Assembly: GCA_947498705.1 (NCBI GenBank)
Contig: CANMLW010000008.1
Coordinates: forward strand, 1-64,000
Direction: 5' to 3'
DNA: 64,000 nucleotides
Source of the DNA: an uncultured Aquimarina sp.
GTDB lineage: Bacteria > Bacteroidota > Bacteroidia > Flavobacteriales > Flavobacteriaceae
A program made the position numbers and the translations under genes. Under the pieces are notes generated by a model. That model was not told the origin of the DNA. It worked only from the letters and a program-made list of their open reading frames with translations, and ran no database searches. Shown here piece by piece: positions 7,467 through 21,450 of the stretch; position 1 is the stretch's first letter, and each line of letters begins with the position of its first letter.

Positions 7467-9659
7467 ATGAGAAGAAAAAGAATAGTAGTTGTTTTAATAT
7501 ACTTTATTGGATATATATCAAGTGTTGCTCAATCCTATGAAATAAGCAAGGATAGTGTAAATAATATAATTGTAGAGTCCTTTAAAATTATTAGTGAGGG
7601 TGAATATAGTAAGGCTCATGAGCAACTTAGTTTTGCTTTAGAATACGGAAAAAGACATCGCAATGATTCTATAGTAGGAGATGTTTATAATTGCCTAGGA
7701 AGTTTGTTTAGAAGTATGGGGGATTTTGACAATGCGAGTAAGTATTATGCATTGTCTAAGAAAGCATTGATAAAGGCAAACTATAAATCTTATCTAATTT
7801 ACCACTATAATAATGTTGGTAATTTATACAATGATAAAAAAGATTATGTAAATGCAGAGAAGAATTTGAAACAAGCTCGAAACCTTGCATTAGAGCTTAA
7901 TGATTCTTTTAAAGCAATATGGCCAACTTCTAATATTGCAGAAATTAAGTATAATTTAGGAGATTATGAGAATGCATATTTCTATTTATTAGAGACAATA
8001 AAACTGTATGAACCAGATACCATACAGCAACCAGATATTATTATAAGTACTTATAGATATTTAGGTAATATTTATTCAAAGTTTGGAGAGCCAGAAAAAG
8101 CCATCCAGAATTTTGCGAAAGCAAAAGAAATTGCTTTAGCGCATGATTCATACTCAAAACTGATTTTGATAGAAAAAGATAAAGCTATTTTGTTTGATGA
8201 ACTTAATCAACCAGAGAATGCGAAAAAAGCGATGGCCGATCAGATAAAGTTTCTTGAAAAGAACTTTGAAAATCAACAAAGCCTAATTAAAGAGCAAAAT
8301 CAATTAGAACGAGATTTGTTTGAAAAAGAAAGTAGTTTGGTGCTAACCAGAGCATTAAATAAAAGTCAGGAAGAATCTTTACAAAAAATAAAATATTTTG
8401 CATTAGCGTTACTAGCCTTGTTTTTTATAACCATTAGTGTGGTAGTGTTATTATATAAGTCTAATAAAAATCGTTTAAATTTAAACAATAGCCTAAAAGT
8501 AAAAAACAAGGAGCTACTAGATGCCAAAGAAAAGACAGAATATGCCGCACAATTAAAAACTAATTTCTTTTCTACAATCAGTCATGAGTTGCGTACCCCT
8601 CTTTATGCTGTTACCGGCATAACCGATATATTGATTGATGAAAACCCTAAAAAGAACCAAGTCCATTACCTAAATGCATTAAAGTCTTCTGGTGAACATT
8701 TACTCTCTTTGATTAATAATATTCTTCAAATTAACAGGTACGATGCCAATAAAATAGAACTAAATGTTATAGAATTTAATATTGAAGAAATCATTAATAA
8801 TTTAAAAAATGCGTTGAGTTATTTGAAAAAAGAAAATAACAATCGCATTCATATAAGTGTTGATAATGATATTCCGAAAAAGTTAAAAGGCGATTCTATA
8901 AAGTTATCTCAGATCATAATAAACCTTTTAGGAAATGCTTTAAAATTTACTGAAAACGGAAATATATGGCTAACTGTAAACCGTGTTGGTGTTGAACAAA
9001 ATCGAGAAAATGAAGTTACTCTTAAGATTAATATTAAAGACGACGGTATTGGTATTTCTAAGCAAATGCAAAGTAGAATTTTTGAAGATTTTTACCAGGA
9101 ATCAATTCAGCTTAACCGCAACTATGAAGGGGCTGGTCTAGGATTAGCAATTGTAAAACGTTTGCTAAACGCTATGGGGAGCGAAATTATGGTTGATAGT
9201 AATCCAAATGAAGGTGCAAGTTTTTCTTTTGTTATTAAGTTCGAATGTGAGCCAGAAATTACACAAGCTCAAATAATTGATGAGGACCTCATTAACCTTA
9301 AAAATAAAACGGTATTAGTGGTAGATGATAATGCAATTAATCAAATGATAACAAGGCGCATCTTAGAAACTAAAAATGCAGATGTGGTTGTTATTGATAA
9401 TGGATTCGATGCAATTGAGTTGGTTGAAAATCAAAATTTTGATATTATACTTATGGATATTCATATGCCCAAAATGAATGGGTATGAGACGACAAAAAAA
9501 ATACGAGATTTTAATACCGAAACACCTATCATTGCTCTAACTGCTGTTGATCTTAGTGAAAATAGAGAAAAAATTAGTGCCTCTGGAATGAATGGGGTTA
9601 TATCTAAGCCTTTTCAACTGGATCACTTTTATATAGAACTTAATAAATTTATTAGTTAA
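7467..9659 (+). CDS. TPR-containing hybrid sensor histidine kinase / response regulator
   Basis: A 730-aa protein when started at ATG 7467; an in-frame TTG two codons earlier is less likely. Order: signal peptide ending VAQ, a TPR array in the periplasm (about 30-260, repeats such as YVNAEKNLKQARNLAL), a coiled segment, a membrane helix at about 309-331, HisKA with the phospho-acceptor His373 in FSTISHELRTPL, HATPase (NLLGNALKFTENG; GAGLGLAIVKRLL), and a C-terminal receiver with phospho-acceptor Asp664 in MDIHMPKMNG. There is no DNA-binding output domain and no adjacent regulator, so phosphate is probably passed to a distant partner. Monocistronic with its own terminator. Confidence 0.95.
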   Translation: MRRKRIVVVLIYFIGYISSVAQSYEISKDSVNNIIVESFKIISEGEYSKAHEQLSFALEYGKRHRNDSIVGDVYNCLGSLFRSMGDFDNASKYYALSKKALIKANYKSYLIYHYNNVGNLYNDKKDYVNAEKNLKQARNLALELNDSFKAIWPTSNIAEIKYNLGDYENAYFYLLETIKLYEPDTIQQPDIIISTYRYLGNIYSKFGEPEKAIQNFAKAKEIALAHDSYSKLILIEKDKAILFDELNQPENAKKAMADQIKFLEKNFENQQSLIKEQNQLERDLFEKESSLVLTRALNKSQEESLQKIKYFALALLALFFITISVVVLLYKSNKNRLNLNNSLKVKNKELLDAKEKTEYAAQLKTNFFSTISHELRTPLYAVTGITDILIDENPKKNQVHYLNALKSSGEHLLSLINNILQINRYDANKIELNVIEFNIEEIINNLKNALSYLKKENNNRIHISVDNDIPKKLKGDSIKLSQIIINLLGNALKFTENGNIWLTVNRVGVEQNRENEVTLKINIKDDGIGISKQMQSRIFEDFYQESIQLNRNYEGAGLGLAIVKRLLNAMGSEIMVDSNPNEGASFSFVIKFECEPEITQAQIIDEDLINLKNKTVLVVDDNAINQMITRRILETKNADVVVIDNGFDAIELVENQNFDIILMDIHMPKMNGYETTKKIRDFNTETPIIALTAVDLSENREKISASGMNGVISKPFQLDHFYIELNKFIS

Positions 9660-16147: not shown

Positions 16148-16915
16148 ATGTCTATCAAAAAGCATGTTCCTAATTTTATTACTTTGCTCAATCTTTTTTG
16201 TGGCTCTATTGCTGTTATTTTTGCAGTACAAGGACATTTACAACTTGCTGCTCTTTTTGTGTTACTGGGGATAGGTTTTGATTTTTTTGATGGTTTGGCA
16301 GCCCGTATATTAGATGTTAGGAGTGAATTAGGATTGCAGCTCGATTCATTGGCAGATATGGTAACTAGTGGGGTGGTGCCAGGAATTGTAATGTACCAAT
16401 TGCTTACACAAGTTTTTGGGAAACCATTTTATGTGGTTTCTAGCTCCTGGAATTCTGAAGAAGCTTTGTCTGATTCTTGGATATCTTATTTGCCTTTATT
16501 AGGATTGTTAATTACACTAGCTTCGGCATATCGATTGGCTAAATTTAATATTGATACACGTCAAACTACATCATTTATAGGATTGCCAACCCCTGCAAAT
16601 ACTTTACTGATAATTAGCTTGCCGCTCATACTCATTTATCAGCAAGAAGCATGGATTCATGAAATTATTCTTAATAGATGGTTTTTGATAGGACTAACAC
16701 TATTAAGTTGTTATTTATTGAATGCAGAAATTAGCTTATTTGCTTTAAAATTTAAAACCTGGAGTTTTTCAGAGAATAAAATACGGTACATATTTTTATT
16801 ACTTACAATTGTTCTATTGATATTTTTAAAATTTGTTGCCATTCCTTGTGTTATTTTACTTTATATAGTATTATCATTAATATTTGGTGATAAGTATAAA
16901 AAAAAGCAGGACTAG
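16148..16915 (+). CDS. pssA: CDP-diacylglycerol--serine O-phosphatidyltransferase
   Basis: Makes phosphatidylserine, precursor of phosphatidylethanolamine. The CDP-alcohol phosphotransferase signature is present: DFFDGLAARILD followed by SELGLQLDSLADM (pattern D-G-x2-A-R-x8-G-x3-D). Multiple membrane helices run through the 255 residues. I chose ATG 16148 (MSIKKHVPNFITLLNL) because homologues begin there; the longer in-frame start at 16034 would add 38 residues of low-complexity, intergenic-like sequence. The stop codon lies inside a hairpin. Confidence 0.93.
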   Translation: MSIKKHVPNFITLLNLFCGSIAVIFAVQGHLQLAALFVLLGIGFDFFDGLAARILDVRSELGLQLDSLADMVTSGVVPGIVMYQLLTQVFGKPFYVVSSSWNSEEALSDSWISYLPLLGLLITLASAYRLAKFNIDTRQTTSFIGLPTPANTLLIISLPLILIYQQEAWIHEIILNRWFLIGLTLLSCYLLNAEISLFALKFKTWSFSENKIRYIFLLLTIVLLIFLKFVAIPCVILLYIVLSLIFGDKYKKKQD

Positions 16916-16925
16916 CCTGCTTCTT
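16900..16925 (-). terminator. Terminator overlapping the pssA stop, best oriented for the minus strand
   Basis: Stem AAGCAGG / CCTGCTT with a five-base loop. On the minus strand it is followed by eight T residues, so it fits as the terminator of the small peptide gene ending at 16958. On the plus strand the tail is not T-rich. Confidence 0.65.
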
Positions 16926-16957
16926 GTTCTAAAAGTTTGCTCGCATTTTAAGACTGT

Positions 16958-17110
16958 CTAACCGCAAACAGAAGATCCTACTATACAGCATGGGTGTTGT
17001 AGGTTTTGACTTAAACTACAATCGATATACCAATTACCAGCGTTGATTTCTCGTTGTTGTTGCTTTTCTAAAATCTGAACTTCCTGTAAGTTTAAAATAC
17101 TTCGTAACAT
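16958..17110 (-). CDS. 50-aa leader-peptide-like (bacteriocin/RiPP-type) small protein
   Basis: Short gene found by reading the minus strand between pssA and the TetR gene. The peptide starts MLRSILNLQEVQILEKQQQ and continues REINAG before a Cys-containing C-terminus (NWYIDCSLSQNL..., CCIVGSSVCG), with Cys at 31, 41, 42 and 49. Bacteroidota small peptides exported by Cys-protease ABC transporters share this form: a short hydrophilic leader with L-x-K-x-E-Q-x-x-I-N-G-G, then a Cys-rich core. Here the usual GG is AG. No modification or export gene is adjacent. A T-tailed hairpin follows the stop. Coding status and function are inferred from form only. Confidence 0.6.
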   Translation of the reverse strand: MLRSILNLQEVQILEKQQQREINAGNWYIDCSLSQNLQHPCCIVGSSVCG

Positions 17111-17405
17111 AGTTTAAAAGGTTTAATGTGAATACTACTTTAAATTGGATGTTATTAAAGATAAATCATATCGATTATATAGGAAACATAAATATTTGAT
17201 TTGTAATTAAAATTATGATATTCTGAATTTTAAGGTTTTTAAACTGTTTTTTGTTAGGAGAGTTTATTAATAAACATCGAAATCACATTTTAATAAATAA
17301 TAACTCATGAGTTAATAAGAAAACTTTTAAATGTAAATATATTTTGTTTAACAAAAATGCAATTCAGTAAAACATTTTGTATTTTTGTATATAGATATAT
17401 GAGTT
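17111..17405. other. Intergenic region between the small peptide and the TetR operon
   Basis: 295 AT-rich bases holding the promoters of both divergent genes. A TATTTTTG element at 17380-17387, 18 bases before the TetR gene, matches the Bacteroidota -7 box; a clear TTTG at the right distance is lacking. No SD is seen for the peptide gene. Confidence 0.5.
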
Positions 17406-18059
17406 ATGAAAAAAAAACATAAAATCACTTCAGAAAAGATTATAGAGTTGTATATGAACGATGTACTGCTTTTATCAGAACCTCATTCATCCGTCTATGC
17501 TTTTGCAAAGCGACATGATTTTGAGGAGTCCGAATTTTATCAACATTTCAGTAGTTTTGAAAATATTGAGAAATTTATTTTTGCTTCTTTTTGTGATCAA
17601 GCCATTATTTTGCTCGAGCAGTCTAAGGAATATATTGATTTTAATGAAAAGCAAAAATTGTTAAGTTTTTATTATACTTTTTTTGAAATACTTTCTGCAA
17701 ATAGATCGTATGTGGTAACGTTTCTTCAAAAACATAGAAGTAAACTAAAATCTTTAAAATCTCTTTCTAGGTTAAAAGAGTCTTATCTAAGTTTTGTTGA
17801 TGGTTTGGATCTAGAGAAAATAGATTTTAAAAAAGAAAGATTTAATAGTATTCAAGATAAGGGTTTTAAGGAGGCAGCATGGGTTCAATTACTGGTTGTG
17901 TTAGAGTTTTGGTTAAATGATGAATCTAAAGGATTTGAGAAAACCGATATTTTTATTGAAAAATCGATTCGAGCTACGTTTGATTTAATTAGCATAGCTC
18001 CCATCAAAAGTGTTGTGGATTTAGTAAAGTTTGTGTGGAAAGAAAAAATGAATGTATGA
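17406..18059 (+). CDS. TetR family transcriptional regulator
   Basis: A 217-aa regulator. Residues about 8-60 form the TetR DNA-binding helix-turn-helix (TSEKIIELYMND, then SSVYAFAKRHDFEESEFYQHFSSFENIEKFI), where the Y-x-H-F segment is the family's recognition helix end. The remaining all-helical part is the ligand-binding domain; the ligand is unknown. It heads an operon with an ABC1 kinase and a flavin reductase, overlapping or abutting the next gene, so it probably controls its own operon. Confidence 0.88.
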   Translation: MKKKHKITSEKIIELYMNDVLLLSEPHSSVYAFAKRHDFEESEFYQHFSSFENIEKFIFASFCDQAIILLEQSKEYIDFNEKQKLLSFYYTFFEILSANRSYVVTFLQKHRSKLKSLKSLSRLKESYLSFVDGLDLEKIDFKKERFNSIQDKGFKEAAWVQLLVVLEFWLNDESKGFEKTDIFIEKSIRATFDLISIAPIKSVVDLVKFVWKEKMNV

Positions 18060-19383
18060 TATGAAATCAATTAATAAAATTCCTACGTCAAAAATAGAAA
18101 GAGCTTCTAAATTAATTTCTACTGGTCTGAAAGTTGGTGTGAATTATGCTAAATACTACGGTGATACGGTTGTGAAATCTAAAGAGAAAGCAAAAGAGAA
18201 TCTTAATGAAGCTAATGCAGATGATATTTATAATGGCCTTAAAACATTGAAAGGTTCTGCATTAAAAGTGGCTCAAATGTTAAGTATGGAAAAAAATATA
18301 CTTCCAAGAGCTTATGTAGAAAAATTTTCGTTAGCACAATTTTCTGTACCTCCATTATCCGCTCCTCTTGTGATAAAAACATTCAAAAAGTATTTTAATA
18401 AAGTACCTACTGAAGTATTTGATACTTTTTCGACAGAATCTGTTAACGCGGCTAGTATAGGGCAGGTTCATAAAGCAACAAAAGAAGGAAGACAGCTTGC
18501 TGTTAAAATTCAATATCCAGGAGTAGCAGAAAGCATATCGTCAGATCTTGCTCTTGTTAAACCAATAGCAATTAAAATGTTTAATATTAAAGGAAAAGGA
18601 TCTGATGAATATTTTAAAGAAGTAGAAGACAAACTAATTGAAGAGACTAATTATGATCTTGAATTGGAGCAAAGTATAGAGATAATTGAAAAATGTAAAA
18701 ATATAGAAGGACTAAAATTTCCTAATTATTACCCAAAATATTCTTCAAATAGGATATTAACTATGGATTGGATGGATGGTGTGCATCTTTCTGAGTTTAC
18801 AGCGCGAAATAAAAGTATAGAGAAGGCAAATCAAATAGGACAATCATTATGGGATTTTTATATGTTCCAAATTCATATTCTTAAAAAAGTGCATGCAGAT
18901 CCACATCCTGGTAATTTCCTGGTATCTGATACCAATGAATTAATCGTTATTGATTTTGGTTGCATGAAACAAATTCCTAATGAATTCTATGTACCTTATT
19001 TTGAGCTTGCAGAAAGAGAAAATATCAATGATTCAAAGTTTTTTGAAAAAAAATTGTATGAATTAGAAATTTTAAGAAATGATGATTCTCCTTACGAAAA
19101 GAAATTTTTTAATGATCTATTTTATGAAATGCTGTCATTATTTACAAAACCATTTCAAGAGGAAGTTTTTGATTTTTCAGATGAAGTTTTCTATAAAAAA
19201 ATAGCTGATTTAGGGCAGAAATATGCCAAAAGTTCAGAAATAAAAAAAATGAATGGAAATAGAGGGTCTAAACATTTTATTTACATGAATAGAACCTTTT
19301 TTGGATTGTATAATTTGATGCACGATTTAAAATCTACCAGTATCAAGATTAATAATTTTAAGAGTATAGGGAATGCATTTTAA
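18052..19383 (+). CDS. ABC1/AarF (UbiB/COQ8-like) atypical kinase
   Basis: A 443-aa protein-kinase-like ATPase of the UbiB family. Visible motifs are LKGSALKVAQML near residues 67-77 (the KxGQ region), NAASIGQVH (the Ala-rich nucleotide loop), AVKIQYPG with the ATP-binding Lys, VHADPHPGNF and VIDFG. The KxGQ motif reads KVAQ here, a Gly-to-Ala change. Family members support isoprenoid quinone synthesis or lipid homeostasis. The start may be 18052 (8-base overlap with the TetR gene) or ATG 18061. The downstream flavin reductase overlaps its end. Confidence 0.9.
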   Translation: MYDMKSINKIPTSKIERASKLISTGLKVGVNYAKYYGDTVVKSKEKAKENLNEANADDIYNGLKTLKGSALKVAQMLSMEKNILPRAYVEKFSLAQFSVPPLSAPLVIKTFKKYFNKVPTEVFDTFSTESVNAASIGQVHKATKEGRQLAVKIQYPGVAESISSDLALVKPIAIKMFNIKGKGSDEYFKEVEDKLIEETNYDLELEQSIEIIEKCKNIEGLKFPNYYPKYSSNRILTMDWMDGVHLSEFTARNKSIEKANQIGQSLWDFYMFQIHILKKVHADPHPGNFLVSDTNELIVIDFGCMKQIPNEFYVPYFELAERENINDSKFFEKKLYELEILRNDDSPYEKKFFNDLFYEMLSLFTKPFQEEVFDFSDEVFYKKIADLGQKYAKSSEIKKMNGNRGSKHFIYMNRTFFGLYNLMHDLKSTSIKINNFKSIGNAF

Positions 19384-19984
19384 TCGAAAGAAAATTGATT
19401 CATTAGATCATTTATATAAAATCAATTTAATAAATAGTATATCAGGTTTTAAATCGGCTAACCTTATTGGGACAAGATCTTTAACAGGAGTCACAAATGT
19501 TGCTGTTTTTAGTTCGGTTACGCACTATGGATCGGCTCCTCCTATTCTTGGTTTTGTGTTACGACCAACTACGGTGGTAAGAAACACTTATGATAATATT
19601 AAAGAAACAGGACTTTTTACTATTAATCATATTTACAAAGGGATAATTGAAGATGCTCATCATACATCGGCTAAGTATACTTCTGAAATTTCAGAATTTG
19701 ATAAAACGTTATTAGAGGAGAGTTATCTAAATGATTTTTATGCTCCTTTCGTTAAAGGGTCTCCTGTAAAAATGGCAATGAAATATCTTGAAGAGTATCA
19801 TATCAAAGCAAATGGTACCATTTTACTTTTAGGTGAAGTTTTAGATCTGTATGTAGAGGATATTTTGGTAGAAGAAGATGGTTTTGTTAATTTGGAAAAA
19901 GGCAATATAGCAGCTATTAATGGACTTGATGGGTATGTAACCCCCAAGCTTTATTCGAGATTAGCTTATCAAAGGCCAAAATAA
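19373..19984 (+). CDS. Flavin reductase family protein (FMN-binding split barrel)
   Basis: A 203-aa cytosolic protein of the flavoredoxin/flavin reductase-like family. The N-terminal half has the FMN-binding pattern GTRSLTGVTNVAVFSSVTHYGSAPPILGFVLRP (only part shown here is typical: TNVAVFSSV then PPILGFVLRP) and RNTYDNIKETGLFTINHI. It likely binds FMN and transfers electrons to a partner. It overlaps the ABC1 kinase gene by 11 bases and ends 10 bases from a convergent FMN reductase gene, so two flavin proteins sit end to end. Confidence 0.87.
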   Translation: MHFNRKKIDSLDHLYKINLINSISGFKSANLIGTRSLTGVTNVAVFSSVTHYGSAPPILGFVLRPTTVVRNTYDNIKETGLFTINHIYKGIIEDAHHTSAKYTSEISEFDKTLLEESYLNDFYAPFVKGSPVKMAMKYLEEYHIKANGTILLLGEVLDLYVEDILVEEDGFVNLEKGNIAAINGLDGYVTPKLYSRLAYQRPK

Positions 19985-19994
19985 GAGTTTTGCA

Positions 19995-20648
19995 TTATTG
20001 TCCAAAAGGGTGTATTTTGGATAAAGAAACTAATTCACTGCGAACTTCTTTCAATTTGTTAGCATAAATAATTAGGCTCTCTATCCCTGTTACCAATCTA
20101 GATTGAACCTGAGAAAATCTATGGTTATCTTTTGGAGACCAGTCATTTTTTAAAAAATCTTCTACGTTAGAGATTATTGTATGTAATGGTGTCCATGTTA
20201 AATGACTGTTTTTAGCTGCATATCCTTTTAAAAGAGAAATAGGGTAGGTTCCTCCACCAGATGCAGAAACTCCTACAATAAACCCTGGTTTATGACCAAG
20301 AGGCAATCCTTGAGCAGAACCATAGGCACATAGTAATAGTAAGTTTACAAGGGCAGGAGGGATCATACCTCCCCATTCTGGAACTACAAATATGGCAGCA
20401 TCACATGCATAAAGTCGATCAAGTACTTCTTTTTTGTCTTTATCCATTAATACATTGTCGTTTTCACGACCATATCCATAGTGATCTAATAAGAATGGAT
20501 GCAATGATAAATCTAAAATAGAAGAAGATAAGTTTGAGATAGCTTTTAAAACGTTTTTTTGAATGTATTTAGAAACTTCTAAACTTTTAGAATCATCTCG
20601 TTGACTACAATTAATAACTAAGATATCTAGTTTTGTTTCGATCTTCAT
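19995..20648 (-). CDS. NAD(P)H-dependent FMN reductase family protein
   Basis: A 217-aa flavodoxin-like protein. The N-terminus LDILVINCSQRDDSKSLEV is the phosphate-binding loop and VVPEWGGMIPPALVNLLLLC corresponds to the P-E-Y-N-G-S-I-P-x-x-L-K-N segment that contacts FMN in this family. It would reduce FMN or quinone-like acceptors with NAD(P)H. Transcribed toward the flavin reductase gene and separate from the lptB operon, which begins upstream on the same strand. Confidence 0.85.
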   Translation of the reverse strand: MKIETKLDILVINCSQRDDSKSLEVSKYIQKNVLKAISNLSSSILDLSLHPFLLDHYGYGRENDNVLMDKDKKEVLDRLYACDAAIFVVPEWGGMIPPALVNLLLLCAYGSAQGLPLGHKPGFIVGVSASGGGTYPISLLKGYAAKNSHLTWTPLHTIISNVEDFLKNDWSPKDNHRFSQVQSRLVTGIESLIIYANKLKEVRSELVSLSKIHPFGQ

Positions 20649-20709: not shown

Positions 20710-21450
20710 CTAGAAGCTAAGTTTTTTCTTTCTCAACTCAAAGTTTTGACCTAAGTATACTTTACGTACCATCTCATCTTCTGCTAGTTCTTCTGGTATT
20801 CCTGCTTTAAGGATGCTACCTTCAAACATAAGGTAAGTTCTGTCTGTTATGGCTAGTGTTTCCTGTACGTTGTGATCTGTAATTAAAATCCCTATATTTT
20901 TGTTTTTTAACTGCGCTACAATACGTTGTATGTCCTCTACAGCAACCGGATCAACTCCTGCAAAAGGCTCATCCAGAAGTATAAAATTAGGATCTGTTGC
21001 CAGGGCTCGCGCAATTTCTGTACGACGTCGTTCCCCACCACTTAATAAGTCTCCTCTGTTTTTACGAATATGCCCCAGGCCAAACTCTTCTATAAGTGCT
21101 TCCATTTTATGAAGTTGTTCTTTTTTAGAAAGCTTGGTAAGTTGTAGCACACTCAAAATATTATCCTCGATACTAAGTTTTCTGAAAACAGAAGCTTCTT
21201 GCGCCAAATAACCGATACCATTTTGAGCTCTTTTATACATGGGATATTTTGTAATATCGGTATTGTCTAAGGTGATTTTTCCTCCATTTGGTTTAACCAA
21301 CCCAACAATCATATAAAAAGATGTGGTTTTTCCTGCTCCATTTGGTCCTAAAAGCCCGACGATCTCCCCTTGATTAACTTCTAAAGAGATTCCTTTTACT
21401 ACTTTTCTTCCTTTATAGGCTTTTATTAAATTTTCTGCTTGTAATTTCAT
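20710..21450 (-). CDS. lptB: LPS export ABC transporter ATP-binding protein
   Basis: A 246-aa ABC ATPase that powers the Lpt bridge taking lipopolysaccharide from inner to outer membrane. Motifs: Walker [11 protein letters not shown] (about 34-43), signature LSGGERRR, Walker [14 protein letters not shown] and the switch His in ITDHNV. FAGVDP and GERRR are characteristic of LptB. It ends an envelope operon kdsD-tatC-CMD-lptB in which kdsD supplies Kdo for LPS, which supports the assignment. Confidence 0.95.

Follow-up and report, generated by a model that had tools for sequence, protein, structure and literature searches.

A solitary four-cysteine leader peptide gene of Aquimarina as candidate substrate of a C39-like/VKOR/thioredoxin fusion acting in trans

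The DNA analyzed here is a stretch of 64,000 nucleotides (the window) on contig 8 (C8) of an uncultured Aquimarina genome of 5.08 Mb in 88 contigs. Its minus strand carries, at positions 16958-17110, a small gene for the peptide MLRSILNLQEVQILEKQQQREINAGNWYIDCSLSQNLQHPCCIVGSSVCG, which is composed of a leader and a core with cysteines at residues 31, 41, 42, and 49 and a HPCC motif. The locus comprises the following features:

16958..17110, minus strand: precursor peptide gene, 50 codons plus TAG, defined by the open reading frame and the ortholog alignment
17036..17110, minus strand: leader, residues 1-25, MLRSILNLQEVQILEKQQQREINAG, a member of the MLKNILNLxxVxxLxKxxQxSINGG family (alignment A2)
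16961..17035, minus strand: core, residues 26-50, NWYIDCSLSQNLQHPCCIVGSSVCG, with four Cys; against the ortholog, 6.5 nonsynonymous differences fall on about 60 sites
16901..16925, minus strand: intrinsic terminator-like hairpin with a T tail; it lies 32 bases past the stop codon and overlaps the convergent pssA-like gene at its 3' end
17112..17163, minus strand: upstream stretch, candidate 5' UTR/promoter region, aligning weakly with the DNA upstream of the ortholog

The coordinates, strand, length of 50 residues plus TAG, leader, and cysteine positions are all as the first-pass annotation had given them. Its T-tailed hairpin after the stop codon is also borne out, by a site of 10 pairs at 16925-16901 on the minus strand; terminator-like sites number two in 16800-17420 (one per strand, from the same hairpin) versus 0.1 expected in shuffled sequence. 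The fold energy of this hairpin is unexceptional (z -0.75), and the ortholog locus (L002, see below) has its own GCGAG...CTCGC downstream of the gene, as read by eye. A sigma-70 promoter scan was uninformative, with 3 sites versus 4.6 expected. Naming them by eye, we take the neighbors to be a convergent pssA-like gene and a TetR-like regulator. Within the window, four genes (17406-20648) separate the peptide gene from an lptB-like gene (20710-21450); by eye, these are presumably a TetR-like regulator, an AarF/UbiB-like kinase, and flavin reductase-like and NADPH-FMN reductase-like genes. In Aquimarina genome G051 (L002), the lptB-like gene directly adjoins the peptide gene, and hence the 17406-20648 block has been either inserted or lost.

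The ortholog of the peptide in G051 (E 4.3e-21; 69% identical in the search and 68% in alignment A1) has the same pssA-like gene as its neighbor and retains all four cysteines. By approximate site counts, 17 differences between the two genes fall on 28.5 synonymous sites and 20 on 121.5 nonsynonymous sites, a contrast with a Fisher p of 6e-6 on rounded counts, and the pair bears the signature of purifying selection. The reading frame is confirmed as a genuine gene, above chance. The core is not significantly more conserved than the leader (6.5/60 versus 13.5/61 nonsynonymous differences, p 0.22).

Searches of Pfam and NCBIfam with the window peptide gave no match, and a single-peptide scan of the named genomes found no relative, so a leader profile was used. 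A peptide search at E <= 1 returned matches in 48 of 91 relatives. The profile (A2) derives from 27 leaders chosen within Aquimarina itself; the window leader, being one of these 27 rows, matches it at E 2.6e-13 in its own genome. In the alignments, the common leader MLKNILNLxxVxxLxKxxQxSINGG heads cores that share little but cysteines. Matches to A2 at E <= 0.01 occur in 44 of the 52 genus genomes, at 1 to 51 per genome, with 12 copies of the family in the source genome. Across the Flavobacteriaceae, at E <= 0.001, the leader is present in at least 40 of 397 genomes and 32 of 237 genera, counts that are lower bounds given that part of the candidates was scored. The first-pass annotation had made its reading depend on conserved homologues of this leader in other flavobacterial genomes, and these exist at both ranks. 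It had also described a leader followed by a Cys-rich core, with AG in place of GG, and this holds. Among 133 unique long-leader peptides, a regular expression assigned the cut dipeptide as GG in 97, AG in 13, GA in 7, GS in 4, SG in 3, and HG in 1, leaving 8 without assignment; AG, carried by 13 of the 133, is therefore a regular minor variant.

A second, shorter leader type, MKKSILNLGKALNKxEQKxINGG, is found in the Tenacibaculum loci listed. Some cores, such as CQPTLIECRSDRDCCSGRCG...C in L007, may resemble inhibitor cystine knots in their cysteine spacing. Tandem arrays of precursors are also seen. In L098 (9618-11270), four precursors whose leaders are nearly identical but whose six-Cys cores differ lie on the same strand as a fusion of the kind described below (7557-9143) and upstream of it, and this array looks to have arisen by duplication and core diversification. 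L017 (1255-1953) and L005 (1426-2064) each contain three tandem leader peptides that carry, close to the C terminus, HPCC or H(Y/F)CC, motifs that recall the HPCC of the window core; no fusion is present within the 3 kb examined around these two arrays.

Cysteines are nearly confined to the cores, at 821 of 6480 core residues versus 1 of 3700 leader residues, and they occur in even numbers. Dereplication at 50% core identity gave 164 peptides, of which the 160 with two or more cysteines entered the parity test (peptides with 0 or 1, that is, 4 of the 164 dereplicated and 8 of the 276 unique ones, were omitted). The number is even in 138 of these 160 (binomial p 5e-22). Both this test and the locus counts below cover peptides that have a stop codon, are at most 140 residues long, and reach a leader score of 14. 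Parity is seen in 47 of 50 peptides whose loci were retrieved on other grounds than the fusion, some of which nevertheless adjoin one, and in 91 of 110 from fusion loci; long-leader peptides taken alone give 63 of 78. Pairing of cysteines is what disulfide bonding predicts, and we infer that thioether rings follow no such rule; the parity therefore favors disulfides over thioethers. The window core, with four cysteines, fits the paired pattern of disulfide-bonded exported peptides.

A search for C39 domains returned, beside transporters, reading frames of about 520 to 590 residues with weak C39 matches that also match VKOR. Three such fusions are encoded in the source genome (C22:17958-19574, C1:1379964-1381631, and C6:200885-202516). 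In all three, Pfam identifies VKOR and Thioredoxin_4; in two it gives a sub-threshold C39 match, and the N-terminal domain of the third was found by profile A5 (E 2.6e-7). The protein is about 530 residues in size, and the four cysteines of VKOR and the CxxC of the thioredoxin are invariant in 44 fusion sequences. Bacterial VKOR-thioredoxin fusions combine a four-cysteine VKOR and a thioredoxin CxxC in one chain. Unlike these, the present proteins have an additional N-terminal C39-like domain and a tie to one leader family.

The N-terminal domain, predicted alone (pLDDT 81.9, pTM 0.71), matched the peptidase domains of PCAT1 and ComA in Foldseek (E 1e-5 to 7e-5). VIA-align placed it on PCAT1 with Z 13.2 (3.2 Å over 125 residues), on the LahT protease-leader complex 6mpz with Z 12.9 (3.0 Å over 120 residues), and on the C39-like domain of HlyB, 3zua, with Z 10.7 (3.6 Å over 121 residues). 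PCAT1, LahT, and ComA together span Z 12.2-13.2, and other papain-fold chains follow close behind the C39 entries (9l5u, Z 11.5; 8ssm, Z 10.6). The domain has no conserved cysteine: within the first 125 residues, 35 of the 44 sequences lack Cys altogether, and even in the column richest in it Cys occurs in 8 of 44. A histidine, His33, is kept in 42 of 44. Because a C39 fold is combined with the lack of a conserved cysteine, this is probably a leader-binding, non-cleaving C39-like domain. The full-length model has a pTM of 0.56, and its first 50 Foldseek entries are all thioredoxin-fold proteins; the VKOR identity rests on Pfam and the invariant cysteines.

Across the phylum, profile A5 matches in at least 44 of 395 genomes and 15 of 171 genera, lower bounds from scoring part of the candidates; a few of the matches are partial and lie in PCAT-looking reading frames of 716 to 737 residues. 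One contig titled as an Oligoflexales metagenome-assembled genome (L168) carries a fusion and leader peptides typical of Flavobacteriaceae, reflecting either a binning error or transfer. Weak C39 matches in short stand-alone reading frames (164 to 178 residues) recur across several Aquimarina genomes (G026:C1:1775502, G033:C4:326508, G014:C1:976013, and G018:C1:421386).

Leader and fusion genes often lie close together. In 24 of 35 family genomes, the nearest leader and VKOR matches are within 5 kb of each other, against 0.52 expected under uniform placement in 4 Mb, and the distances in those genomes are 0.84-1.6 kb. The 35 are the genomes with both parts and listed places (G306 and G480 left out of 37), and the comparison uses the long-leader profile alone with leader places among the matches listed. 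The named fusion loci examined were the 80 best among 195 relatives, each searched up to 6 kb on either side. Leader peptides with a score of at least 14 occur in 60 of them: 25 of 41 in Aquimarina, 13 of 13 in Tenacibaculum, 5 of 5 in Dokdonia, 3 of 6 in Kordia, and others besides, with both the window-type long leader and the shorter type represented. The remaining 20 of 80 have no leader peptide within that distance. All 198 leader peptides of the fusion loci share the strand of the fusion, and at least 160 lie downstream, a lower bound with downstream defined as beyond the fixed coordinate 7000.

Presence of the leader and of VKOR agrees in all 52 genus genomes, the same 8 lacking both. 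In an rpoB tree rooted at the midpoint, from which G013 and G021 are missing for want of an rpoB match (G021 being the eighth absence), all seven placed absence genomes form one clade, and hence the agreement amounts to one joint loss or gain. Independent losses within the genus were considered as support and rejected on the same clade. The association across the family is broader evidence: taking the leader and VKOR searches as covering the same 397 genomes, VKOR occurs in 37 of 40 leader-positive versus 25 of 357 leader-negative genomes, as raw counts that ignore kinship. Genomes without a match were listed in part, and the numbers of genomes with VKOR are minimum values. Of the 62 such genomes, 3 fall under the Pfam cut-off, and matches were counted as VKOR as such, the other two domains of the fusion having been checked for part of them. 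Three leader-positive genomes (G118, G159, and G352) have no VKOR match, and G159 has two strong leader matches.

The window gene itself is solitary, adjoining neither a fusion nor PCAT genes. The first-pass annotation had noted that no modification or export gene lies in the window, and this holds among the matches listed, since no C39 or VKOR place is on contig 8. The source genome has six C39 matches, of which the five listed are on contigs C1, C1, C2, C7, and C9, and its VKOR places are on C1, C22, and C6. The match on contig 7 (L086:9450-11654) has C39, ABC membrane, and ATPase domains; by eye, its Cys and His motifs are those expected of a peptidase-containing ABC transporter (PCAT), and it forms a PCAT-HlyD pair beside which there is no fusion. 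Fusion, PCAT, and HlyD genes lie head to tail as an operon in L092 and L093, and the PCAT on contig 7 is 91% identical to that of L093. The C39 ABC transporter that the annotation had proposed to look for in the same genome is thus present, and its suggestion that genes elsewhere might process the peptide finds support in the fusions on C1, C22, and C6 and the PCAT-HlyD pair on contig 7.

Because the leader is shared, the oxidase carries a dead C39 domain, the PCAT carries its motifs, and the cysteine numbers are even, we propose leader-guided oxidation followed by PCAT export. The window gene would then encode the precursor of an exported, disulfide-bonded peptide. The fusion would oxidize this peptide and the PCAT would cut and export it, all in trans, and we consider this account likely. 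The 25-residue leader would act like a C39-type recognition and export signal common to many scattered precursors; as it departs from the textbook motif, we refrain from classing it with the canonical double-glycine leaders. In the fusion, the C39-like domain, catalytically dead, would hold the reduced precursor by the leader, and the VKOR module, a quinone-linked disulfide generator, and the DsbA-like thioredoxin module would make the disulfides of the core. The PCAT and its HlyD adaptor would cut after Ala24-Gly25 and export a 25-residue peptide with two disulfides. Contig 1 or 22 (or 6) could supply the fusion, and contig 7 the PCAT-HlyD pair. The gene and its family, purifying selection, the cysteine parity, the position of long-leader relatives beside the fusion, the domains of the fusion, and the occurrence of both machines in the source genome are observed. 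Oxidation by the fusion, the order of oxidation and cleavage, and the use of this PCAT are the parts of the route that we infer. Against it, three leader-positive genomes lack a VKOR match, 20 of the 80 fusion loci show no leader peptide nearby, and the leader of the window peptide, through Gln at -7 and its Ala-Gly end, departs from known C39 substrates.

Some of these observations would fit another arrangement, in which a PCAT exports and cleaves the peptide, disulfides form spontaneously or through general Dsb enzymes, and the fusion serves adjacent peptides only. The solitary position of the window gene, the genomes with a leader and no VKOR, and the other C39 transporters in the source genome all agree with it, but solitary and fusion-adjacent long-leader peptides have one leader type, and leader and VKOR are present or absent together; we regard it as unlikely. 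We find it improbable that the product is a lanthipeptide or other thioether peptide modified in trans by LanB/LanC or a radical SAM enzyme. The core does contain Ser and Cys, and the source genome has three LanC matches, including C1:857101-858216 near GG peptides with another leader. These matches are on C1 and C9, with none on C8, however, and six leader-positive genomes have no LanC match (G003, G008, G011, G024, G028, and G039), one of them with 31 leader copies. Even cysteine numbers would not be expected of thioethers, and long-leader relatives adjoin a disulfide oxidase. Lanthionine is hence disfavored by the distribution of LanC, the lanthionine-synthesis family searched. Of the earlier interpretation, the leader, the Cys-rich core, the AG end, and distant processing genes stand; lanthionine-type processing is not supported, since six leader-positive genomes lack LanC and the cysteine parity fits disulfides, and the fusion was not among the partners it had named. 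The region C1:832000-858000 (L087 and L088) encodes GG peptides of another leader type, e.g., KKLNLxKxNIxxLxxxxGG, together with two C39 ABC transporters, whose partners look HlyD-like by eye, and the LanC-like gene at C1:857101-858216, and probably represents lanthipeptide clusters separate from the leader family of the window.

Four cysteines including a CC pair might also suit a cytoplasmic metal-binding or redox peptide with the leader as a structural helix. The near Cys-free leader common to unrelated cores, the GG-like ends, and relatives beside a PCAT-linked oxidase fit export instead, and such a function seems very improbable. Damaged-looking copies in the source genome raise the question of whether a mobile bacteriocin family has left the gene behind as a decaying or non-coding remnant: L037 has five cysteines versus six in its paralogs L036 and L038, and L041 stops shortly past the leader, without Cys. 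The L037 paralog (1384-1572) has Tyr in place of one Cys and is perhaps a decaying copy. The window gene, in contrast, changes far faster at synonymous sites relative to its ortholog and keeps all four cysteines, which makes a remnant barely credible.

A cysteine-rich exported peptide with a GG-type leader and a thiol oxidoreductase is of a known kind. Bacteroidetocins, as described by Coyne et al. (2019; PMC6671954), are Bacteroidota GG-leader peptides with four cysteines and a C39 ABC transporter that act against Bacteroidales; deletion of the thiol oxidoreductase gene attenuates their activity, and that account reports no immunity gene found. By description, they share with the window peptide the GG-type leader, four cysteines, C39 transporter, and thiol oxidoreductase. 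Their leaders are given as 15 to 16 residues long (PMC6671954), versus 25 in the window peptide, and they are encoded in one transporter-adjacent cluster of four genes, in which the five-TM protein and the oxidoreductase each have a gene of their own, in contrast to the scattered precursors and single fusion here; the window gene has neither that leader length nor that setting. As bacteroidetocins act on Bacteroidales and partly lose activity without the oxidoreductase gene, an antagonistic, bacteriocin-like product is our leading guess by analogy, a tentative one that we place somewhat short of even.

C39 substrates, in the account of PMC6363468, typically end in Gly-Gly/Ala/Ser and have hydrophobic residues at -12, -7, and -4. 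The window leader shares with LahT, ComA, and PCAT1 substrates the hydrophobic -12 (Leu14) and -4 (Ile22) and small residues at the cut site. It differs from C39/PCAT substrates in having Gln19 in place of Leu at -7 and an Ala-Gly end. A C39 ABC transporter is present in the genome. LahT tolerates neither Lys nor Asp for Leu at -7, Gln being unmentioned there (PMC6363468); within A2, Gln19 is conserved at 90% or more. In type I systems, a C39-like domain recruits and tethers the substrate (PMC6363468). The HlyB-type C39-like domain (PDB 3zua) and the N-terminal domain of the fusion both have the C39 fold without the catalytic Cys, the former fused to an ABC transporter and the latter to VKOR-thioredoxin. 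NCBIfam NF047792 (CCPGW putative bacteriocin) matches the peptide of one relative, L003, weakly and below its cut-off (E 0.012, 15.6 bits, cut-off 80). In the literature searched, by title and start of abstract, neither a C39-like/VKOR/thioredoxin fusion nor the leader family is described, nor is a fused, leader-binding VKOR-thioredoxin enzyme that serves many scattered precursors; absence from print is not claimed.

For the family as a whole, the fusion may be a leader-directed disulfide oxidase that serves in trans up to about 50 fast-diversifying, partly knottin-like peptide genes per genome, new cores needing the leader only, a generalization to which we give even chances. If the fusion grips the tag and joins the cysteines, the maturation of solitary copies such as the window gene would be accounted for, and many solitary small genes in marine Flavobacteriaceae without an adjacent modification gene would acquire a function. 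It would also be new for disulfide formation to be guided through recognition of a leader and not through general periplasmic enzymes, and tag and enzyme could be used to produce disulfide-rich peptides in bacteria. The processing of orphan GG peptides would thereby become a question directly testable by knockout and mass spectrometry.
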